Part shown: piece by piece, positions 43,106 through 57,141 of the stretch
How the letters are laid out: each line of letters begins with the position of its first letter
How positions within the stretch are numbered: position 1 is the stretch's first letter
Source: Candidatus Brocadia pituitae
GTDB lineage: Bacteria > Planctomycetota > Brocadiia > Brocadiales > Brocadiaceae
Length of the DNA: 64,000 bases
Direction: 5' to 3'
Assembly (NCBI GenBank): GCA_017347445.1
Contig: AP021856.1
Coordinates: 1,062,613-1,126,612, forward strand
The notes under the pieces: generated by a model
Seen by the model: only the letters and a program-made list of their open reading frames with translations
Databases searched by the model: none
What the model was told of the DNA's origin: nothing
Made by a program: the position numbers and the translations under genes

Positions 43106-44371
43106 TTAAAACCGGTACGTGAAATTCATGGCAATGATATGCGTGATGAGATCGTAGTGGCCGTCTATGGGAGTGCCAAAGGCGTCTCCCGCGTTATTGT
43201 TTACCTCTCTGTTTTCATAAAACACGATACCGTAAGCAAAGTCTATCCATTGGTTCAAATTTTTACCCCATCCGTATCCAAATCCCGTATGTAATGAATG
43301 GCGGCTGCTTTGCGGGATAGAGGGCTCAAAGGTTTCAGCCGGAACGGGTGATTCATGAAATGCATAACCGCCTCGCACTTTGAGCGTCTCATGTACACGA
43401 TATTCCCCGCCCAGGGCAAAGCCCCACGTATTGTGCCAGTTTCTGACATCCTCTAATTCAGAGCCAAGCAGAGGGTTTGGTGGTTCTAGGCCAATTTCAA
43501 GGACGTCAAATCTCGACCAGTTCGTCCACTGGGCATCTGCTTCTATACTCCAGGTCTGCCCATGCCGGTATGCATAACCAAAAGAGACCATTTCGGGTAG
43601 TGTGGCAGTGGTACTGGCGTCTGACCTGAAGCGGTCAGACCCGGTTATGGCTTCTGGCAGGCCGCTGAGTTTTAGCTCACCATCAAGGTCTAAGTCTGCC
43701 TTACTTCTGAAAGAAATCCCAATACTATGCTGCGGAGTAAGAGTGCAGAGTATTCCCGCATTGTATCCAAAGCCGTCGCCATCCATTTCAAGCTTGCGGA
43801 ACCCCTCCGGGGTTCCTGAAACGAAAGAAGGAATGCGCCCTTCCTGAGTAGAATCGGCATAATAATAGTTGAGCCCAGTGCCGATTGAGAGAAAAGGAAG
43901 CGGTTTAAAGGTTATGGTTGGGTTAATGTTAATGATGCTTAAATCAAAGTCAGTTATGACAAACCGTGAAAACCCATTTTCGTCCCACTTTCCCTTAAGC
44001 CCGTAAGGGGCTGTTAACCCTATGCCGGCAGCTAATTTGTTTTCGATGATCGGGCTGGCAAAATAGGAATGCGGTATCATGTTTATGCCGGTATCCATAT
44101 CTTCAGAGATACCATTGCCGTGATATTCCACTGAAGGGAGCACAAAGCTCATGCCCGTGGAGATCTGCGGTCTTGTGAGTTGCGTCAGACCAGCCGGATT
44201 GAATGCAATTGCAGATGCGTCGTCTGCACGTGCTACAAAGGCATTTCCCTGGGCAAGGGGCGAAGCGCTAAAAACGGGGTTATGGAAACCTGAAGCGATT
44301 TGTGCAACGGCGTCTGTTTCTTTCAGGTAACTGAGAAGAATGAAAAAACAAATTGCAGCAAATCGTTTCAT
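43106..44371 (-). CDS. FadL/OmpP1-type outer membrane transport protein
   Basis: 421 residues from the ATG at 44371, which has GGAGG nine bases upstream; a frame extending 13 codons upstream is not supported. A signal peptide is followed by NPVFSASPLAQGNAFVARADDASAIAFNPAGLTQL, the FadL N-terminal hatch with the NPAG motif. The rest has strand periodicity ending MNFTYRF, an aromatic last residue as expected of beta-barrels. It likely imports hydrophobic molecules. Six bases separate the raw frame from the HD-GYP gene upstream on the same strand, so they are probably co-transcribed. Confidence 0.88.
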   Translation of the reverse strand: MKRFAAICFFILLSYLKETDAVAQIASGFHNPVFSASPLAQGNAFVARADDASAIAFNPAGLTQLTRPQISTGMSFVLPSVEYHGNGISEDMDTGINMIPHSYFASPIIENKLAAGIGLTAPYGLKGKWDENGFSRFVITDFDLSIININPTITFKPLPFLSIGTGLNYYYADSTQEGRIPSFVSGTPEGFRKLEMDGDGFGYNAGILCTLTPQHSIGISFRSKADLDLDGELKLSGLPEAITGSDRFRSDASTTATLPEMVSFGYAYRHGQTWSIEADAQWTNWSRFDVLEIGLEPPNPLLGSELEDVRNWHNTWGFALGGEYRVHETLKVRGGYAFHESPVPAETFEPSIPQSSRHSLHTGFGYGWGKNLNQWIDFAYGIVFYENREVNNNAGDAFGTPIDGHYDLITHIIAMNFTYRF

Positions 44372-44416
44372 GACAAATATCCTCCGGTCAGGATAGTGCT
44401 TGGGTAACATGAAGTG

Positions 44417-45451
44417 TCAGTGAGCTAAGGATTCTTCTCTCTGTTCACGTTGCTTGCCTGCTTCATGATATCGTTGGATAATGGCGAGTACCTTTTCTGT
44501 CAGGGTTGGCGTAAATTGGGTATGTATTCCCTGGGTAATAATTTCGCAAGCTTTCTGGTGAGGATATTTTTTATGGTAATGCCTGTCTGTAGTGAGGGCA
44601 TCATACGCATCTATGATGGAAAGAATGCTGGCTTCAAAAGGAATATCAGACCCCTGCAAACCATCAGGATAACCTTTGCCATTATACCATTCGTGATGGT
44701 GCCTCACGATTGGTAAACATTTTTCCATAAATTTTATTGGCGCGATAATTTTATAGCCAATCTCAGAATGGCGTTTCATTAAATAAAATTCTTCCTGAGT
44801 AAGGTAACTGGGTTTTGTTAGTACGAGATCGCCTACCCCAATTTTCCCGATATCATGGAGATAGGCGCCATATCGCAAGACCTCAATTTCTGACTCATTT
44901 CTGTCTAATTCTTTGGCGACAAAGGCTGAAAGTTCCGATACCCGCTTCGAGTGGCCGGCAGTATAAGCGTCTTTCGCGTCTATGGCTTGCAACAGCGCCT
45001 CTGTGGTTGAAAAGAAATGTTGTTGCGCCGCCTTCCTTAGGTTATTCACCAACATATCTCTTTCCCACAGTTCGTTGCTATAGTGCAAGGCCTTTTCTGC
45101 TACCTGGAGGATTTCTTCCGGTTGAAAGGGTTTCACGATAAAATCGAATGCGCCGTTTCGTAAGGAGGTAATGGTGTTTTCGATGGAAGGGTGGGCGGTA
45201 ATCATAATTACAGGGATAGTAGAGTTTGCAGAACGCATCTGTTTGAGAAAATCCAGACCATTTGACTTGGGCATTTTTATGTCAAGGAAGATCATTTCTG
45301 GCTTTATGCTATCCATACTGACAAGGGCTTCATCAATATTCGATGTTATGGAAACAGCATATTTGTCCCTTAGAATGATTCGTAATGATTCCCTTACGCC
45401 AAGGTCGTCATCGATTACCAGGATATTAGCCGATTTCGTTAATTGTTCCAT
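44417..45451 (-). CDS. REC-HD-GYP response regulator
   Basis: 344 residues. A receiver domain has phospho-acceptor D57 (MIFLDIKMPKSNG). The C-terminal HD-GYP domain has AGHSKRV, LHDIGKIGV and HHEWYNGKGYPDGL, all catalytic metal ligands intact. It should hydrolyse c-di-GMP on phosphorylation. The gene is upstream of the FadL-like gene; its own start is divergent from the 660-base control region to the right. Confidence 0.93.
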   Translation of the reverse strand: MEQLTKSANILVIDDDLGVRESLRIILRDKYAVSITSNIDEALVSMDSIKPEMIFLDIKMPKSNGLDFLKQMRSANSTIPVIMITAHPSIENTITSLRNGAFDFIVKPFQPEEILQVAEKALHYSNELWERDMLVNNLRKAAQQHFFSTTEALLQAIDAKDAYTAGHSKRVSELSAFVAKELDRNESEIEVLRYGAYLHDIGKIGVGDLVLTKPSYLTQEEFYLMKRHSEIGYKIIAPIKFMEKCLPIVRHHHEWYNGKGYPDGLQGSDIPFEASILSIIDAYDALTTDRHYHKKYPHQKACEIITQGIHTQFTPTLTEKVLAIIQRYHEAGKQREQREESLAH

Positions 45452-45989: not shown

Positions 45990-46006
45990 TTGGTACTAAA
46001 ATTGCG
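45990..46006 (+). promoter_or_regulatory. Probable sigma-54 promoter
   Basis: TTGGTAC-TAAAA-TTGCG places GG at 45992-45993 and GC at 46004-46005, exactly ten bases apart, as in the -24/-12 element. It points to the REC-GAF-PAS gene about 115 bases downstream, which is followed by an NtrC-type activator gene. The T in GGTAC deviates from the preferred GGCAC. Confidence 0.55.
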
Positions 46007-46119
46007 AAGTGGTCATAATTGTTCAGGTGATTCTAAGTGCAATTGTTTAAAAAGCTTATAAACATGTTTATTTAATCTACATTTTTCTTGACCAAAAGAT
46101 TTTTGAAAAGGAGATGGTT

Positions 46120-47574
46120 ATGTACTCTATTTTGATCGTATCGGATGATGGTTCCGTTAATAACCTTTTTAAAAAGTCTTTAAATGGAGATTATGTAATT
46201 CACTATGCAAAGACCCCCGATGATGCGTTACAGATATTATTTAACAAAGACATCGATATAACCTTTTTAGACGTCCTCCTGAATAACGAAGGGGCAACCA
46301 AATTATTGGAAAAATTCCGGCAAATCAGTATTGATCCGACGGTCGTTTTGGTGATTCCGGAGTCTCAACCGATGCTATCTGAAGATGCCTTGAGGATAGG
46401 TGCCTATGAACTGCTTGAAAAACCATTAACGAACGATGCGATACAGCATGCATCAAGACGGGCTTTGGAAAAACAATCGCTGAAAAAAGAACTGGGTTTT
46501 ATTCAATCTCACATGAAAAATTTGCAGCCGGTAAATAAAGATATGGGTCTTTCGGAGCCCGTAGTGCACAGGCGGCCGGGTGCGGGAGAAATGCATCTGA
46601 AATATAAAGAGGTCTTTCAGAAATTCTCGAAAGTGTTAGCGCGGGTGCAAGACCTTGGAAGACTTGCGGACCTGACGGTTGAGTCAATATCAGAAATATT
46701 TGGTGTGGGTAAGGTGATTTTTATGTTGGTATACAAAAAGGAGGGACTCAGCCGGCCTTACCGGTACATGGGTTTTGATGAAGGAGTTGCTAACAAGGTG
46801 TGTTTTAATAATAATCAGAGCATCATGCTCTGGTTGGCTAAAAAGCATCAAATATTGACGAAAGAGGTTATCGAAAAAGAAGTTGCCGGTAATACCCTGG
46901 GTATTCGTGAGGCGATCAACATCCAGAGAGAAATCAATCTGTTACAAGCCCATCTGTGTATTCCTGTCCTGGCTTACGGGAGTCTCAGTAGCGTGATAAC
47001 CTTGGGGAACAAGATTACGGGAAAGGCCTTCTTTGATGACGATATTGAATTGCTGTCCATGCTGGCCGGGTACATCGGTATGGCAGTTGAAAATGCATTT
47101 TTGTACCGCGAGGCGAATCTCCGGAAGATTCAAAATGAAAATATCCTGGAGAATATCCCGTGCGGTGTTATTGCCATTAACGGCAATGGAAAGATTAATG
47201 CCTTTAACAAAAATGCAGCAAGGATGTTGGATGTTTCTTCGCACGATATCCTTGGAAAGGATGTCAAGCATGTTGGTTCTCTCTTTACTGATATTCTCTT
47301 GAGAACATTAAAAGACAAGAAAACCTATGAGATGAGTGATGTGATACATCCTGTTACTCATGCAGTATACACGGTCAGTACTTCTTTGTTGGAAGCCGGG
47401 GGTGAGTTGGGCGCAATCATGATATTTTCAGATGTAAGTGAGATTCGGAAATTACAATCGAGTTTAAGCGCCGTTGGAGAATTAGAGAACAAACTAAAGA
47501 GTTTGGAAAACCGAACGGCCTCATCCGGCATCACTGCTGATTTGGGTAATATGCTTATTACTCAGGCAGACTGA
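46120..47574 (+). CDS. REC-GAF-PAS signalling protein without output domain
   Basis: 484 residues from the second ATG (46120), chosen because AAGGAG is six bases upstream of it but touches the first. A receiver domain (residues about 1-118, TFLDVLLNNEGA) is followed by a linker, a GAF domain (about 170-335) and a PAS domain (about 345-460, ILENIPCGVIAINGNGKINAFN). No kinase, cyclase or DNA-binding domain is present, so it probably works by binding a partner such as the histidine kinase or NtrC-type regulator encoded next. The sigma-54-like promoter lies upstream. Confidence 0.82.
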   Translation: MYSILIVSDDGSVNNLFKKSLNGDYVIHYAKTPDDALQILFNKDIDITFLDVLLNNEGATKLLEKFRQISIDPTVVLVIPESQPMLSEDALRIGAYELLEKPLTNDAIQHASRRALEKQSLKKELGFIQSHMKNLQPVNKDMGLSEPVVHRRPGAGEMHLKYKEVFQKFSKVLARVQDLGRLADLTVESISEIFGVGKVIFMLVYKKEGLSRPYRYMGFDEGVANKVCFNNNQSIMLWLAKKHQILTKEVIEKEVAGNTLGIREAINIQREINLLQAHLCIPVLAYGSLSSVITLGNKITGKAFFDDDIELLSMLAGYIGMAVENAFLYREANLRKIQNENILENIPCGVIAINGNGKINAFNKNAARMLDVSSHDILGKDVKHVGSLFTDILLRTLKDKKTYEMSDVIHPVTHAVYTVSTSLLEAGGELGAIMIFSDVSEIRKLQSSLSAVGELENKLKSLENRTASSGITADLGNMLITQAD

Positions 47575-47860
47575 TTATCAAAACACGTTTTTAGAAAAAA
47601 CTTTTCTCCCCCTTTCCACCGCAGGCGTTCATGATAAAAATGCTTTAAGAACCGTCCAAAGAGTAGTTTCGTCGAAATAGATTATGCAACCACTGGCCAT
47701 CCTCGTATAAGAACAGCAGAATGGCATTTATTCTGCAAATGCAATAACGGCGAGAAGGGTTTTATCGGGCACATAAGAAAAATATACTATATAGGATGTC
47801 GGAATATTTTAACGAGAGGAAAAGGAGCATTCTGTCTTTCCTGATTCTTGCGAATATTTT
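47575..47860. other. Intergenic region, no gene seen
   Basis: About 285 bases between the REC-GAF-PAS gene and the NtrC-type regulator. No clear promoter or hairpin was recognised. Confidence 0.4.
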
Positions 47861-49240
47861 ATGAAAACGCTTTTACTTGTAGATGATGAATCCAGTGTTG
47901 TTGAATCCCTAAGGCTTATCTTAAAGGATAATTATAAAGTACTCAGCACACTCAGTGGAAAAGAGGCCTTAAAGATGCTGGAAAAAGAGCATGTAGATCT
48001 TATCCTTCTTGATTTAAAAATGCATGAGCTGGATGGTTTGGAATTTCTGAGGAGATTACAACCCTTTGGTTATGAGGCCGGCGTCATAGTATTAACTGCA
48101 GTAACTGACGTTAAAACTGTTGTTGAGGCAGTTAAGCTGGGTGCGTTGGATTATATCGTCAAGCCTTTTGGAGTTGAGGAAATCAGGATAACCATTGAAA
48201 AGGCCCTGCAGTTAAGAAGATTAACCCGTGAAATTCACTATCTTCGTTCAGAATATAAATACCATGCACTTGATAGACTCATCCAGGGACGAAGCCGCAT
48301 TATGGAGGAAATTCTTGATATCGTCTCTCGTGTGTCTCGGGTTGATTCAACCGTTCTTCTGCGCGGTGAAAGCGGAACCGGCAAGGAATTAGTAGCGCGT
48401 GCAATCCATTTTCATAGTAACCGGCGGGAGGAGCCCTTTGTTGTGGTAAGTTGTCCGAATCTGGCAGGCGATCTGCTTGAAGCAGAACTGTTTGGTTATG
48501 AAAAGGGATCGTTTACCGGTGCATATGAGAGACGGTTAGGGAAGTTTGAGATTGCCGAAGGGGGCACCATATTTCTTGATGAAATTAGTGAGATAAACCT
48601 TCCGTTGCAGGCAAAGCTTCTGCGCATTTTACAGGAGAAAGAATTCTCTCGTTTAGGCAGCCATGTGGTTATCAAGACCGATGTGCGTATTGTTGCTGCA
48701 ACAAACAAAGATTTGGAATCCATGATCAGGGATGGCCGGTTCCGGGAGGACTTGTACTATCGTATCAATGTCGTTCCCATCTATCTTCCGACGCTGCGGG
48801 AAAGGCAGGAGGATATTCCTCAATTAGTGGAACACTACTTTGATGCGTTTAGAAAAGAGTGTCATGCAAAGATTGAATTTATTTCAAAAGAAGCTATGGA
48901 AGCATTGTTAAAATATCACTGGCCTGGAAACGTAAGAGAACTGAAAAATATTATGGAGAGAACGGTTGCACTCTATGGCAATGAGCCGACTCTTTTCCCT
49001 GAACACCTGCCTATGGAAATCACTGGTATTTCTTCCCGGAATCTGCAATGGGTAAAATCGGGCAAAAACTGGCAAATGTGTTTAGAAGATGAAGTAGCTC
49101 GGGTTGAAAAGAAGCTCATTGAGCAGGCCATTCAGCAATCGGGCGGTGTGAAATCAAAGGCGGCGAAGCTCCTCGGAACTACCCGCCGCATTATTAACTA
49201 CAAGATGCAAAAATACGGAATCACGGACATCGGGAACTAA
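47861..49240 (+). CDS. NtrC-family sigma-54 response regulator
   Basis: 459 residues. The receiver domain has D51 (LILLDLKMHELDG). The AAA+ domain has Walker A GESGTGKE at 169-176, the sigma-54-contact loop as GSFTGA at 216-221 (a common variant of GAFTGA) and Walker B GGTIFLDEI. A Fis-type helix-turn-helix is at the end (SGGVKSKAAKLLGTTRRIINYKM). It would activate sigma-54 promoters when phosphorylated. It precedes the radical-SAM/ketosynthase/histidine-kinase genes on the same strand, 64 bases away. Confidence 0.94.
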   Translation: MKTLLLVDDESSVVESLRLILKDNYKVLSTLSGKEALKMLEKEHVDLILLDLKMHELDGLEFLRRLQPFGYEAGVIVLTAVTDVKTVVEAVKLGALDYIVKPFGVEEIRITIEKALQLRRLTREIHYLRSEYKYHALDRLIQGRSRIMEEILDIVSRVSRVDSTVLLRGESGTGKELVARAIHFHSNRREEPFVVVSCPNLAGDLLEAELFGYEKGSFTGAYERRLGKFEIAEGGTIFLDEISEINLPLQAKLLRILQEKEFSRLGSHVVIKTDVRIVAATNKDLESMIRDGRFREDLYYRINVVPIYLPTLRERQEDIPQLVEHYFDAFRKECHAKIEFISKEAMEALLKYHWPGNVRELKNIMERTVALYGNEPTLFPEHLPMEITGISSRNLQWVKSGKNWQMCLEDEVARVEKKLIEQAIQQSGGVKSKAAKLLGTTRRIINYKMQKYGITDIGN

Positions 49241-49304: not shown

Positions 49305-51131
49305 ATGCAGACAGCAGATGGAATCGATCTTATGCTATGGAATTCCTTTATGGGAAAGGCTTATTCCGTGAGTGATTGCTTTCGGGAAAATGGTATTGGA
49401 ATACTCTCCAGGGCATGCAGGGATGCAGGTTTTACGGTTACTATTGAAGACCCGGCGGGCATTGAATTCTATTCCACGTTTACAAAAAATGACCTTACCC
49501 CGCGATTGTCAGAACTCTCTCTTCTCATTTTTGATGCGAAATCTGGAGAAGATATGGCGTCATTCAGGAAGGAGTGGAACCTGTTGCAGGATGCCCTTGG
49601 TGGAATTATCCAGGAAAAAATGGAGAGATACCTTATCTCTCTGGCCCACAAGGTGCATAAAAATCACGTTAAAGTGCTCGGAATAAAGACCTGGCTTGGT
49701 GACAGGTTTCGCTACTCCGAAAAACTTGCACAGAAGGTGAAGGAACACAGTCCGGATACTTTGGTAATTGCCGGCGGGCCACAGGTTAATCAATTTAAGA
49801 GACATGCACTGGAAAGAAGCCCTTTTGATTTTTGCATTGATGTTGAGGGAGAAACAACTCTGGTGCAGATACTTACCATCGCGCGGGAAATCTATACCTT
49901 GAGCGGCACGAAATCCGAAATAATAAGGAGGGTTACTGAACTCGCAGAAACGGGCAAGATCAGTAACTTGTTGTATAGGGATGCCGGCGGTGTCGTAAAA
50001 AACACGCCGGTCAGGAGACTTTCTTTAAACGCAAAACCTTTTCCCTGGTATGAAAAAGAGGATGGGAAGGTAAACATAGCCGTAATAAATGAATCTTCCG
50101 GATGTTATTACGGAAGATGTAATTTTTGCACCCATCCCAACATTACCGGTAGATATCAGGCCAGAGACGTTGCCCTGACGATACGAGAAATAAAAAATAC
50201 CATAGAGGAAACGGGTATCGGACTCTTTCGTTTTGCAGGTTCTTCAACGCCTATTTCGCTGAGTAAGCGAATCGCTGATGCTCTATTGTCGGATGGTTTA
50301 CACATTGAGTACTCAATGTTCATCCGGGCCGAGACCACGGCAAAGACGAAGGCGGGAGAATTGGTAGCAGCCTATGAAAAAATAATACGTTCCGGACTGA
50401 GGGCAGTCTTTCTCGGCGTTGAGGTTGCAAACAACAATATCCTTTCCAATATTATGCAGAAAGGAAATTCCACAGAAGATTTTTATTTTACGATTAAGGC
50501 CATAAAGCAAGCCGCCCACAACGAAAGAAAACATCTTGATGTAGGAATAAGTATGATTTATCCTTGCCCACTACCTCCGGGAAGTGGTATAACACATGAG
50601 CAGATTTTGGAAGATAATCTCTCTTTACTTCAGAAATTAAAAAATGCACATTGCATGCCGGATTCGGTTTTGATAACTCCGGCCGCACCCTTGCCTGGTA
50701 CGGCATGGCAAACAGAGCCGGAAAGATTTGGGTTTGATCTGCCTGAAGATTATTTCCAGACTATCTTGCGTTATGAATATGAACTGACGAAGGACCCCAG
50801 TACATGGCCTGAGCTGGATATCTCCTTGCAGGGGCTAAAGTTTCTGGATATGCTTAAAATGTCAGGACTCATGGAGAAAAAGGTCAGAGAAATGGGTTAT
50901 ACCGTAAACGTCTCCGATGAACACTGCCTTGCGGCAAGGAGTGCTGGTTTTATCGGGCAGAAGGGATTAGAGGAATTTAAGACGAAAAGTGATTTGGCTT
51001 TATTAACGACAGACTACTCCTTCTTGAGAAATGTTTATCAGAAAATAAATGTATACAGTCGTACCCTGGCAGAGAAAAATTTCTCTTCGTCAAATAGGGG
51101 TGTTTCTGAGAGTGGAAAAGTTCTATGCTAA
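49305..51131 (+). CDS. B12-type radical SAM enzyme
   Basis: 608 residues. The N-terminal 170 residues resemble a cobalamin-binding fold (VKVLGIKTWLGDRF, then LVIAGGPQVNQF). The radical-SAM cysteines are C267, C272 and C275 in GCYYGRCNFC, the C-x4-C-x2-C spacing seen in many B12-dependent radical SAM proteins. The C-terminal third is unassigned. The last seven bases overlap the ketosynthase start (ATGCTAA), so the two are translated together and may act on a fatty-acyl or related chain. The substrate is unknown. Confidence 0.85.
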   Translation: MQTADGIDLMLWNSFMGKAYSVSDCFRENGIGILSRACRDAGFTVTIEDPAGIEFYSTFTKNDLTPRLSELSLLIFDAKSGEDMASFRKEWNLLQDALGGIIQEKMERYLISLAHKVHKNHVKVLGIKTWLGDRFRYSEKLAQKVKEHSPDTLVIAGGPQVNQFKRHALERSPFDFCIDVEGETTLVQILTIAREIYTLSGTKSEIIRRVTELAETGKISNLLYRDAGGVVKNTPVRRLSLNAKPFPWYEKEDGKVNIAVINESSGCYYGRCNFCTHPNITGRYQARDVALTIREIKNTIEETGIGLFRFAGSSTPISLSKRIADALLSDGLHIEYSMFIRAETTAKTKAGELVAAYEKIIRSGLRAVFLGVEVANNNILSNIMQKGNSTEDFYFTIKAIKQAAHNERKHLDVGISMIYPCPLPPGSGITHEQILEDNLSLLQKLKNAHCMPDSVLITPAAPLPGTAWQTEPERFGFDLPEDYFQTILRYEYELTKDPSTWPELDISLQGLKFLDMLKMSGLMEKKVREMGYTVNVSDEHCLAARSAGFIGQKGLEEFKTKSDLALLTTDYSFLRNVYQKINVYSRTLAEKNFSSSNRGVSESGKVLC

Positions 51132-52369
51132 CCAGAAGAGTTGTTATCACCGGTTTGGGCATATTAGCGCCTAATGGCAATGGGAAAGACGCATACTGGA
51201 AGGCGCTTATCAATGGCCAATCAGGTATAAAAAGGATTGCCTCCTTTGATCCATCCCCATTCAGTACTCAGATTGCAGGTGAGGTAAAAGATTTTAATCC
51301 GAGCGATTATTTTGATCAAAAATTAGTCAAAAGAAGCGGAAGATTCACCCACTTTGGTGTTGCAGCATCAAAGATGGCGGTTGCAGATTCCGGCATTAAC
51401 CTCAACAATGAAAATCGATTCCGGTGCGGTGTATGTTTTGGAACAACGATCGGTGCTGAAAATGATATCTACGAAGGCCAGCACAGGAGATTCTTAGAGA
51501 ATGGGCCGAAAGCGGTTAGCCGTTTTACCGCTCCCGAGTTTACGCCGCATGTAACAACGGGTTATATCTGTTCAGAATTAGGAATTTCCGGGCCGAATTC
51601 AACCTTGTCATCGGGATGCTCTACCGGGCTTGAAGTTGTGAACTGGGGCTATACGATGGTAAAGCGGGGAGAGGTAGATGTGGCAATTGTGGGAAGCTCT
51701 GATGCTCCCATCTTTCCGTTTGCTATGTCCACATTCTGTGCCCTAGGAATTCTGTCGAAAAGGAATGATGCACCTGAGAAGGCCTCACGGCCATACGATA
51801 AGGATCGTGATGGTATGGTAATTAGTGAAGGGGGAGCTGCTGTAGTGATCGAGGAACTGAATCACGCCTTAGGGAGAGGGGCAACTATCTATGCAGAGAT
51901 TGTATCTTATGCATCTACCTGTGATGCGCAGGACGTTGTTCGGGTTGACGTCAGTGGACAGGCGCTGGTTTCTGCGTTGGGACAAGCGCTGATATCTGGT
52001 AAGATGAAAAAAGAAGAAATCGACTATGTCTGCGCTCATGGGAATGCTATTCCCAGCTATGACATATCAGAAACAAACGCATTTAAAACATTCTTTGGAA
52101 CTCATGCGTATAAAATTCCCGTAAGTTCAATTAAGTCCATGACAGGCCAGGCATATGCAGCTGGCGGCGGCTTCCAGGTAGTTGCAGCGAGCCTCTGCCT
52201 CAAGAACGGCTTTGTTATTCCAACCGTTAACCTTGACATGCCTGATCCTCTCTGTGACCTTGACTATGTCCCTCTCCATGCCAGGCGTTTCTCCATGGAT
52301 ACAGCACTGATAAACAGCCATAGCGTTGGTGGGACACATGCCGTTCTCGTGCTAAGGAAATATCCTTAG
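51125..52369 (+). CDS. KAS II-like ketosynthase lacking second catalytic His
   Basis: 414 residues, full length for FabF. The nucleophile C165 is in LSSGCSTGLE and the first histidine H305 in CAHGNAIP. The conserved lysine K337 is in SIKSMTG, but the second histidine, normally next in MTGH, is Q342 (MTGQAYAAGGG). The C-terminal glycine motif reads SVGGTHA. KAS I/II enzymes use the C-H-H triad for decarboxylative condensation, so this one is probably specialised or altered in chemistry. It overlaps the radical-SAM gene and is 11 bases from the kinase gene. Confidence 0.85.
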   Translation: MLTRRVVITGLGILAPNGNGKDAYWKALINGQSGIKRIASFDPSPFSTQIAGEVKDFNPSDYFDQKLVKRSGRFTHFGVAASKMAVADSGINLNNENRFRCGVCFGTTIGAENDIYEGQHRRFLENGPKAVSRFTAPEFTPHVTTGYICSELGISGPNSTLSSGCSTGLEVVNWGYTMVKRGEVDVAIVGSSDAPIFPFAMSTFCALGILSKRNDAPEKASRPYDKDRDGMVISEGGAAVVIEELNHALGRGATIYAEIVSYASTCDAQDVVRVDVSGQALVSALGQALISGKMKKEEIDYVCAHGNAIPSYDISETNAFKTFFGTHAYKIPVSSIKSMTGQAYAAGGGFQVVAASLCLKNGFVIPTVNLDMPDPLCDLDYVPLHARRFSMDTALINSHSVGGTHAVLVLRKYP

Positions 52370-52380
52370 GAATGTAGCTT

Positions 52381-54933
52381 ATGCTTGCAAGCCAGTCAAT
52401 ATTCATTTTTATATTCCTGCTGATTGCTGGAATTGGAGTCCTTGTACTCTTTAAAAATCCGGCAAACGTCATCAATAAGAGATTTTGTATCTTCGCACAA
52501 GTCATAGCGGTCTGGATCTTTCTTATCTTTTTTTTGCTTCAGACCACAGATCCCGCATTGGCTACTTTCAGACTTCGTCTGGTTTTTTGTGCCGCGATCT
52601 TTATTCCCCCCGCCTTTTTCTCCTTTTCGTCCGTTTTCCCTACCCAGGAGGAAAGGTCTTTTGACCGATATTTGAACATCTCCTTTTTTGCCATAAGTGT
52701 TCTTCTTGTATTTTTTTCTTCCCATATTGTTCAGTCTGTGTACTTCGTGGAACAATTTCCCCAGGCTACGTATAATCCATTATTTCCTCTCTTCTGGCTC
52801 TATTTTATTGCTTGTATGACGTACTCCTTATATTCCCTTTACCGAAAAAGTATACGCTTTTATGGCATAAAGAGATTACAAGTCCAATATTTATACTTCG
52901 GGGTAGCGGTGTCTGTGTTTCTGGGCATCATCACAAATTTTCTCTTACCAATGTTTGGTGTATGGCAAGTTGAAGTGTTTGTCCCACTTGTGGCCGTTCC
53001 CATTCCGATTGCTGTCGCTTACGCTATTGTAAAGTACCATCTCATGGACATCAGCTTAGTAATCAAGCGAAGTACCGTTTACGCTGCTCTCTCCGTTACT
53101 CTCAGTATCATCTATTTTGCAGTTGGTTTTATCATGAGCAGGATACTGCCAGTATCAGAGTATACAGAGACGATCACGAACGTAGTTTCTATTATTGTAA
53201 TGATCTTAACCTTTGTGCCTGTCAGAGAATTAATTCAACATTTTATTGAGAATAGCTTATTCCGTACCAAGTACAGCTATCCGAAGATACTGAGTGGCTC
53301 TACGCTCATGTTTTCATCAATCCACGACTTAAACAGAATGCTCCGTTTTGCCATCCAATATTTATATGATTCCGTAGGTATCGAGAAAATAGGCATATTG
53401 ATACGGGATGAAAAAACCAACCGGTACCAAATGCAAGCAGCACTTAACATTCCTTCTCATAACACCATATTCCTTGACAGCCAGGATGCTGTAGTCGTTT
53501 GGCTCTGTAAAAATCGAACCGTTCTTTCCAAAGAGCAATTGAGCCGTTTTCGGCACACTGAGTATGACCGTTTGCTGGAAGAAACGTTGACGTCTCTGGA
53601 TGTTGATAGCTGCCTGCCGGTCCTTTTGGGGAACGATCTCTTTGGAATAATTCTTCTGGGGAGAAAAGTGAACAAAAAAGTATTTACCCAGGAAGATATT
53701 CAGATGTTTCTTGCGTTTTCCGGCCAATTGGCAATGGCTGCTCATAATGCCCGTCTCTATTCAGGATTGGATGAAGCGAAGACCTACCAGGACAATATCC
53801 TCCAAAGTTTACAATGCGGTGTGATTGCTGTAGATACTCATGAAGAAGTCACGATGATCAATCATGAGGCAAAAATAATCCTTGGTATGGAAAGTATTGG
53901 TTCTGATGGAACGATACTCACCGCCCTCAATAAGGATACGCACTATCTCCTGCAACATACCCTCAAGAATAATATAGACTATCGTGACATAGAAACATCT
54001 ATTGAGAGAGATGATAAAAAAATCCCGTGCGGAATAACCATAACTCAGCTAAAAACCGAGGCAGGAGAAAAACTTGGCGCGCTCATGATTCTAACTGACC
54101 TGACGGAACTGAAATTGCTCCAGGCAGAAAAGCAACATGCCGACCGACTAGCATTTCTTGGCGGACTCGCCTCGAATATCGCCCATGAGATAAAAAATCC
54201 CCTCGTAGCTATAAACACCTATTTTCAACTCCTCCCGTACAAAAAAGACGACGTGGAGTTTCACACCAACTTCCGTGAAATTGCAATAAAGGAGATCGGA
54301 AGGATCAACAGGATTATCGAAGATATGCTCAATCTGGCAAAACCTTCTCAGCCGGTCATACGGTATATAGATCCCCATTGCTGTGTTATGGACACCATAA
54401 ACCTGCTCCGGCACACGGCTGCAGACAAAGGTGTTGAGATAACTGTGGCGCTAGAAGAGAAACGATGCCAGATCATTGCAGATGAGGACAAGATAAAGCA
54501 AGTGCTCCTCAATATTATGCAAAATAGTCTGGACGCTTTATCGGAAAACGGCTGTGTTCAGGTGAGTACCCGTATTATAGACACGATTTCTGAATTCAGA
54601 ACAATGACAAAAGAACATCCATGCAGTATGTTCTTTTCCTTTGCCTCTCATCAGTTAGATCAATTCAATAGGCAATATTTTGTGGTAAAGGTCTCTGATA
54701 ACGGCACGGGGATCCCTGCAGAAAAGATTGCACACATCTTTGAGCCGTTTACTACGAATAAAGAAAAAGGCACAGGCCTTGGTCTTGCTATTGTGTATCG
54801 TATCATAAAGGATCATGAGGGATGTATCTATGTAAAAAGCAAAGAAGGAGCGGGAACAGATTTTTACATTAGTCTTCCGTTATGTAGCCTGAATCCTCTG
54901 GATGATATGAATCCTGGACAAAAAAGTGCGTAA
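52381..54933 (+). CDS. Multi-span sensor histidine kinase with GAF and PAS
   Basis: 850 residues. Eight or nine membrane helices (about 5-285) form a 7TM-type input domain. A GAF domain (about 330-455) and a PAS domain (about 470-580) follow. The HisKA motif is ASNIAHEIKNPLVAINTY near 600, and the ATPase has DNGTGIP and GTGLGLAIV. The layout resembles PrsK-type kinases of exosortase systems, but the match is not certain. It closes a same-strand run regulator-radical SAM-ketosynthase-kinase, so the NtrC-type protein may be its partner. Confidence 0.9.
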   Translation: MLASQSIFIFIFLLIAGIGVLVLFKNPANVINKRFCIFAQVIAVWIFLIFFLLQTTDPALATFRLRLVFCAAIFIPPAFFSFSSVFPTQEERSFDRYLNISFFAISVLLVFFSSHIVQSVYFVEQFPQATYNPLFPLFWLYFIACMTYSLYSLYRKSIRFYGIKRLQVQYLYFGVAVSVFLGIITNFLLPMFGVWQVEVFVPLVAVPIPIAVAYAIVKYHLMDISLVIKRSTVYAALSVTLSIIYFAVGFIMSRILPVSEYTETITNVVSIIVMILTFVPVRELIQHFIENSLFRTKYSYPKILSGSTLMFSSIHDLNRMLRFAIQYLYDSVGIEKIGILIRDEKTNRYQMQAALNIPSHNTIFLDSQDAVVVWLCKNRTVLSKEQLSRFRHTEYDRLLEETLTSLDVDSCLPVLLGNDLFGIILLGRKVNKKVFTQEDIQMFLAFSGQLAMAAHNARLYSGLDEAKTYQDNILQSLQCGVIAVDTHEEVTMINHEAKIILGMESIGSDGTILTALNKDTHYLLQHTLKNNIDYRDIETSIERDDKKIPCGITITQLKTEAGEKLGALMILTDLTELKLLQAEKQHADRLAFLGGLASNIAHEIKNPLVAINTYFQLLPYKKDDVEFHTNFREIAIKEIGRINRIIEDMLNLAKPSQPVIRYIDPHCCVMDTINLLRHTAADKGVEITVALEEKRCQIIADEDKIKQVLLNIMQNSLDALSENGCVQVSTRIIDTISEFRTMTKEHPCSMFFSFASHQLDQFNRQYFVVKVSDNGTGIPAEKIAHIFEPFTTNKEKGTGLGLAIVYRIIKDHEGCIYVKSKEGAGTDFYISLPLCSLNPLDDMNPGQKSA

Positions 54934-55068: not shown

Positions 55069-57141
55069 TTATAAGTGTTTCCTTAAGGCAGCGATATCAG
55101 TCAGGAACCGTTCGTTGGAATACTTTCCCTTTTTTACCACCAGGGAGACACAGTGGTTTAACTTTTTCTTGTCTGCCTGAGTCAAATCCTTTGCAGTAAT
55201 CACGATGATGGGAATGGTGTTCGTCTCCGGTGATGTTTTTAATTTATCCACAACATCAAAACCATTTACCTCCGGCATCATCAGATCCAGGAGAATCATG
55301 TCCGGTTTGTGGAGAAAGGCCTTGTCAATCCCCTCCTTGCCTCCGGAAGCCTGCAATACCTCATATCCTTCTGCGCTGAGGAGGGTATTGAGTAATTCGA
55401 CCGACTTGGGGTCGTCGTCAACAATCAATATCTTCGAGTGTGAGTTGTTAACCCTGGGGAGCAATCCATATGAAGAGAGTTTTGACAAGAGTTCGTTTCT
55501 GCTTACCGGTTTGCTGAGATAATCTGTTGCACCCAGCCCAAAGCCAATATCCTTATTATCTACCAGAGAAATGACCAAGACAGGGATATCTTTCACCTCG
55601 GTATCCTCTTTCAGTTCTTTTAGTACCTCCCATCCGTCCTTTTTGGGAAGCATGATGTCCAGGGTAATGGCAAATGGTTTGAATTTTCTTGCCTTTTGCA
55701 GTGCGTCCTCCCCGTCGAATGCAGTAATGGTCTGATACCCTGATTTGTTTAAAAAGACGCACAATAGCTCGCTCGTCTTAGGGTCGTCTTCTACCACCAG
55801 AATCGTCTCATGGCTTGCAGGTCTCTCTGATAAAGAATGGATGCGTCCCTTTTCTGTTCTGGCGTCTCTGTTTACCGGGAGGGTGAAGAAAAAGACGCTG
55901 CCGGCTCCCACCGTACTCTGAAAGCCTATGGTGCCGCCATGCATCTCAACCAATTTCTTTGTGAGGGCAAGGCCCAGCCCTGTTCCTTCATATTTGCGGG
56001 AGTAAGAGCTGTCGACCTGCGAAAATTCCACAAATATTTTCGGATAATGCTCGGAAGCTATCCCGATGCCCGTATCGGTAACTTTAACTTCGATACCGTT
56101 GTTTTCTTTTTTCAGGGACGTGGTCTGAAGCGTAATCTTTCCTTTTTCCGGGGTAAATTTAATGGCGTTGGAAAGCAGATTATACAATATTTGTTTGAAC
56201 TTGGTAGGGTCGGCAACAAGGCGGTCGCCGGGGTCGTGTATCGTGGTTTCAATGGTGAGCGACTTTTTACTTGCAAGACCTTTCAGGGTGATTAAGACGG
56301 CATCTATCGCCTTGCCGAGCTCAAATTCTTCATATTTTAATTCTAGTTTGCCCGACTCCACTTTTGAGAGATCCAGGATGTCATTGATCATCTGTAACAG
56401 GTGCTGGCCACTGCTATGAATGTCTATAACGAAATCCGACTGCTCTTCATTTAAATCACCGCACAGTTTGTCCCGAAGGACTTCGGCAAAACCAATAATT
56501 GCATTTAATGGAGTGCGCAGCTCGTGTGACATATTGGCGAGAAACTCGCTTTTGGCCTTGTTTGCCGCCTCGATCTTTTTGTTTTGCAGCTCGGTAAGTC
56601 TGACCTTTTCCTCAAGTGCGGCGTGATAACTGTGGATGTAGGCATCCATAGCCAGTTGCATATCCAGGTTCATAATCTTGTCCATGACCAGGATATAGTC
56701 CGTCATCTTCTCTGGCTGGCCTTTATAGGTTTCAATGATAAGCGGGAAGATCAGCCGGTGGTAGAGGCAGTATGCGCCGATATACCAGTTGGGATGCAGG
56801 TCTATGCGATCATGAGTTTTTCCCACGTTTAAACGATGTTCAAAGTATTGTTTGTCATAATTTCCCGCGGTTAGCATTAGGAGATATTCCTTCTGCGTGC
56901 GTTTAACCTCCTTGATCGTATCGTCATCAGATAAAAAAGCCCGGGTTTTTTCGAATCGGAGGAGGTGATGGTAAAACTTGCTTATAATAGTGTCTGCATG
57001 CTGATGAATAAGGTCGTTTAATTCCTTTAACAAAACGACATCTCTCTCGGTAAAATCCAGATACTCTTTACGGGTTTGACGTTCCTGTTCACTCAGGCTT
57101 ACGTCATTCATAGGCATGATATGTTCTTCCATAAGCAACAC
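55069..57141 (-). CDS. Globin-coupled hybrid histidine kinase with two receivers
   Basis: 690 residues. Residues about 20-175 are a globin-coupled-sensor (protoglobin-like) domain with proximal histidine H110 in [19 protein letters not shown]. HisKA carries H206 in [17 protein letters not shown], and HATPase contains TDTGIGIA and [12 protein letters not shown]. Two receiver domains follow, with acceptor aspartates in [13 protein letters not shown] and [13 protein letters not shown]. It likely senses O2, NO or another heme ligand and passes phosphate through the receivers. Soluble. Single gene. Confidence 0.92.

Follow-up and report, generated by a model that had tools for sequence, protein, structure and literature searches.

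A ketosynthase with a Cys-His-Gln triad and a remodelled active site, encoded beside a B12-radical-SAM enzyme and a sensor kinase in anammox bacteria

The 64,000-nucleotide stretch of the Candidatus Brocadia pituitae genome analysed here (the window) encodes, at 51125..52369 on the forward strand, a FabF-fold beta-ketoacyl synthase with the triad Cys165-His305-Gln342, in which Lys337 is kept. We favour the reading, to which we give a probability of about 0.45, that this is an active ketosynthase with a remodelled gate, whose substrate would be an unusual acyl group and whose pathway, shared with a B12-dependent radical SAM enzyme, would be controlled by a sensor. If so, anammox bacteria would possess a regulated acyl pathway that has so far gone undescribed, marked by this locus and separate from the better-studied ladderane clusters.

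The frame and coordinates of this open reading frame of 414 codons were verified, and a Pfam search matched both ketoacyl-synthase domains. Among NCBIfam models, the protein passes the cut-off of the FabF subfamily PRK07314 (404.3 against 387) and falls below that of the fabF equivalog TIGR03150 (425.7 against 493.75 bits); its Pfam and NCBIfam matches included no KAS III model. It is 38-42% identical to solved FabF proteins, in an alignment that is ungapped around the motifs, and its AlphaFold model (pLDDT 86) has the full FabF fold (TM 0.95 and Z of about 64 to FabF), so that the residue register with FabF is not in doubt. C165, H305, K337 and Q342 are equivalent to Cys163, His303, Lys335 and His340 of FabF; the codon of the nucleophile Cys165 is at 51617..51619 (+), and the stretch K337-S-M-T-G-Q342 is at 52133..52150 (+), with the Gln codon CAG at 52148-52150. 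The first-pass annotation of this DNA had described C165 and H305 as intact, K337 as kept and the second triad histidine as replaced by Q342 in the motif MTGQ, and alignment with the solved FabF proteins agrees with it on every one of these residues, as does the structure model on the replacement; neither alignment nor model revealed another histidine in the aligned motif. An alignment shift concealing the triad histidine was ruled out by the ungapped alignment and the FabF-fold model. A pseudogene or a sequencing error was likewise ruled out, by family-wide conservation and by a low dN/dS of about 0.055 (0.043/0.777) against the nearest orthologue, and the family is under strong purifying selection.

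Orthologues, 60-91% identical, are found in Brocadia, Jettenia, Kuenenia hertensis, Loosdrechtia, related Brocadiaceae and one genome of a sister family (G200). Cys165, His305, Lys337, Asp313 and Glu316 are present in every family member that covers the site, and of the 27 family sequences from the Brocadiaceae and the sister-family genome, 20 have Gln at position 342 and 7 have His. A DNA pattern for KSMTGQ gave 11 matches in 294 Planctomycetota genomes, all within this family, and its KSMTG-His version gave 16 matches in 59 genomes, the pattern picking up only part of all ketosynthases. The replacement by Gln342 is genuine and heritable, and among the Planctomycetota sampled it is rare; a search of the available literature for 'Cys-His-Gln' together with ketosynthase returned no match. 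In the family tree, in which the order of the middle forks is poorly resolved, G200 and G223 stand at the base, both with Gln342, and the seven His342 sequences form a single Brocadia clade nested among Gln sequences. Given this nesting and the basal Gln, the simplest history would run from the His of FabF to Gln and then, once, back to His.

The likeness to FabF / KAS II proteins (E. coli; B. subtilis, 4LS5) covers the full-length fold, the Cys, the first His, the Lys, the Asp and the Glu, whereas His340 is replaced by Gln, Thr305 by Asn, Thr307 by Ile or Met, Glu349 by Gln, Phe400 by Val and Asn404 by His. Comparison with FabF-type paralogues extended the set of changes beyond those in the first-pass annotation: N307, Q351, S400-V401 (Gly399-Phe400 in FabF) and H405 are invariant throughout the family, and position 309, equivalent to Thr307, is Ile or Met; H399 and the His342 clade likewise go beyond that annotation. 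The segment H305-G-N307-A-I309 (52037..52051, +) keeps the His and replaces both threonines. Gln351 (52175..52177, +) stands in place of FabF Glu349 (FabB Glu342), at the partner position of the kept Lys337. In H399-S-V401-G-G-T-H405 (52319..52339, +), SVGG and His405 replace the GFGG gating loop with its Asn404; in loop 2, the Pro-Pro hinge is lost and the Asp is Glu in some members of the family. FabB Glu342 has been listed as tuning the catalytic His, and Gln at this position is also found in two chain-length-factor-like (CLF-like) Kuenenia paralogues (PMC2649909). The gate of elongating ketosynthases is formed by Phe400 and Asn404 with Asp265, and in those DEBS ketosynthases that accept branched units the gate residue is Val or Ile (PMC7138838). 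The His342 clade keeps N307, Q351, V401 and H405 unchanged and has additional clade-specific changes at positions 134, 139, 195, 272 and others, so that its substrate may differ a little. Because the other changes are family-wide and without reversion while position 342 varies, Q342 is not by itself what sets the chemistry, and these constant changes are stronger evidence for an altered function than the variable Q342. The switch between Gln and His amid an otherwise fixed, remodelled active site is in effect a natural experiment on the third triad residue.

The first-pass annotation had also suggested an enzyme other than a standard KAS I/II and, from the lost histidine, the possible use of a pre-decarboxylated or different nucleophile or a non-condensing step. 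The former is supported, mainly by changes that it had omitted; the latter does not follow from loss of the second His alone, given Cys-His-Asn decarboxylation by FabH, the hydrogen bond that Gln can still donate, and the nested His342 clade. Type III PKSs have Asn at the third triad position and still decarboxylate malonyl. Work on E. coli FabB reportedly describes the second His as a hydrogen-bond donor held by the Lys, a role that the amide of Gln could take over. With a Cys-His-Asn triad, enzymes of the FabH type decarboxylate malonyl (PMC7645780, PMC12664062), whereas the Cys-His-Asn ketosynthase domain of TAS1 carries out a cyclisation and no condensation (PMC4640141), and with these precedents opposed Gln342 permits either a condensing or a non-condensing reading. 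FabH and type III PKSs resemble the window enzyme in the amide side chain at the third triad position and differ in belonging to their own subfamily, in active-site layout and in having Asn rather than Gln. The TAS1 domain is a Type I-like ketosynthase in which an amide likewise replaces the second His, and differs in being part of a fungal NRPS-PKS, in having Asn and in its tetramic acid product.

In the reading that we favour, Cys165 would load an acyl group with the help of His305 and Lys337, and the reaction would most likely still be a condensation, on an unusual and possibly methyl-branched acyl chain. The hydrogen-bond donor that is His340 in FabF and Asn in FabH may here be Gln342, replaced by His342 in one clade, and the Val401 gate and altered loops may widen or retime substrate entry. 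In favour of this reading are the retention of Cys165, His305, Lys337, Asp313 and Glu316, the low dN/dS, FabH Cys-His-Asn decarboxylation, the interchange of Gln and His with a constant remainder, and the Val or Ile gate of DEBS ketosynthases (PMC7138838). As a counter-point, the equivalents of Thr305, Thr307, Glu349, Phe400 and Asn404 are all changed, and with them several contacts for condensation are lost together. The same family-wide loss favours a non-decarboxylative ketosynthase, in which an acyl or beta-ketoacyl chain on Cys165 would be transferred, cyclised or released without malonyl-ACP, a tentative alternative to which we give well under even odds. Its precedents are the tetramic acid cyclisation by the Cys-His-Asn domain of TAS1 and the C-N bond formed by the CalA3 ketosynthase, though the latter has an ordinary triad. 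It is also favoured by eight loci (6/6 His342 loci with sufficient flanking sequence, and two with Gln342) that carry, upstream of the radical SAM gene, an additional canonical Cys-His-His ketosynthase together with a CLF-like partner, as condensation could be the job of the canonical enzyme there. However, most Gln342 loci, including the window, have no canonical partner, and His305 and Lys337 are strictly kept. The loci with the extra pair are L014, L053, L055, L060, L086, L087, L126 and L127, and their CLF-like member is without the His residues. A strict link between His342 and the extra pair was ruled out by the two Gln342 loci that have it.

Directly upstream of the ketosynthase gene is that of the B12-binding radical SAM protein (49305..51131, +; assigned from the open reading frame with Pfam and NCBIfam), which has the iron-sulphur motif CYYGRCNFC (CX4CX2C). 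In the window, the two genes overlap by 7 nt, the ketosynthase start codon falling within the 3' end of the radical SAM gene, and they are adjacent in this order in 24/24 loci counted with enough flank. The radical SAM motif, at residue 267, has the form CX4CX2C (C[YH]YG[RK]CxFC) rather than the usual CX3CX2C in all orthologues that cover it; a distant homologue in G362 has it as CTWGQCNFC. A 7TM-GAF-PAS histidine kinase (52381..54933, +) begins 11 nt 3' of the ketosynthase gene and is directly 3' of it in all loci but one: in G200 it is placed about 7 kb further on. Domain searches identified an NtrC-type sigma-54 response regulator (47861..49240, +) and a receiver-GAF-PAS protein (46114..47574, +), and locus comparison a divergent receiver-HD domain response regulator (44417..45451, -) and a FadL/OmpP1 outer-membrane transporter (43106..44410, -). 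FadL, the HD-domain regulator and the receiver-GAF-PAS protein are close to the ketosynthase loci; the NtrC-type activator is near the ketosynthase in roughly half of the loci, and its absence from the neighbourhood in about ten genomes is a point against our reading. Also near the locus is a hybrid histidine kinase with an N-terminal protoglobin (haem sensor) domain (55069-57141, -).

A putative sigma-54 promoter, TTGGTACTAAAATTGCG, was located by motif search and conservation across loci at 45990..46006 (+). Sites of this -24/-12 type scoring at least 17/20, which is reached by about 1% of shuffles or fewer, occur in 10/18 upstream regions, 74-200 bp before the first open reading frame. Over the whole window the motif is not in excess (24 found against 30 expected), so that it is position and conservation across loci that argue for the site at 45990. 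A second sigma-54-like site, TGGCATTTATTCTGCA, at 47722-47737 (+) between the GAF-PAS gene and NtrC, does not reach the same strength in the relatives compared. The ketosynthase may work in one pathway with the B12-radical-SAM enzyme, to which it would be translationally coupled, and the switching of this pathway would depend on the neighbouring histidine kinase and on the NtrC-type activator acting through sigma-54. The setting of the ketosynthase gene, with a B12 enzyme and a sensor kinase, suggests a side pathway under regulation rather than a dead enzyme.

Unlikely is the further proposal of an acyl signal, diffusible or in the membrane, that the ketosynthase would produce jointly with the B12-radical-SAM enzyme and the 7TM kinase would sense, with passage through FadL and operon feedback through NtrC and sigma-54. 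The gene order would fit a quorum-sensing-like layout, in which a signal synthase stands beside its sensor kinase; if the proposal is true, anammox bacteria would have a self-inducing system of lipid signalling with a Cys-His-Gln ketosynthase at its base. Locus L058 in G055, from another planctomycete family, is similar in having FadL, an HD regulator, a kinase, a GAF protein and NtrC. In contrast to the window, its ketosynthase has a canonical Cys-His-His triad and a GFGG loop, and an ICMT/PEMT-type methyltransferase (L058:2664-4534) takes the place of the radical SAM gene. When the L058 ketosynthase was used to search for distant homologues of the whole locus, only G055 stood out from ordinary FabF. 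A search with TIGR04072 was unspecific at scores under the cut-off of that model.

We regard as still less probable that the protein serves another ketosynthase as a regulatory or chain-length-factor-like partner subunit and is itself in the course of losing catalysis. The family groups weakly (86/76, long branches) with the CLF-like paralogues L005 and L006, which are without the triad, has Gln351 in common with them and resembles them in the motif MTG[QE]-x-[YF]; the grouping and the common Gln351 count against a live enzyme. A KS/CLF-like pair from an anammox bacterium has moreover been solved (PDB 9S5H), chain C being a near-identical orthologue of L005 from the genome of the window. However, Cys and His are lost in the CLF-like paralogues and never in the ketosynthase family, Cys165 being kept in all orthologues covering the site where chain length factors have lost the catalytic Cys, and most genomes have no adjacent ketosynthase partner. 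Pairs from ladderane clusters (kuste3606/kuste2805 type; PDB 9S5H) occur in the same genomes and include a CLF-like member with Gln351, but their CLF-like members are without Cys and His and they lie in other loci; one such cluster has ACP, dehydratase-like and desaturase-like genes.

Genomes checked for both the ketosynthase and the kinase have either the two together or neither; neither is present in a K. stuttgartiensis-like genome (G088) or in three f2 (Scalinduaceae-like) genomes. A core role in ladderane-lipid synthesis, suggested by the multiple fabF paralogues of anammox hosts and by radical SAM genes within their fatty-acid clusters (PMC2649909), is very improbable and largely refuted by this absence, and the ketosynthase locus is separate from the two KS/CLF clusters of its own genome. 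A hydrazine synthase domain was present in 8/8 genomes tested, including the f2 genomes tested. The ketosynthase unit comes and goes as one block and is dispensable for anammox and, we infer, for ladderanes. The genome of the window has two hydrazine synthase alpha domains with identical scores (G000:C1:857532 and 3029406).
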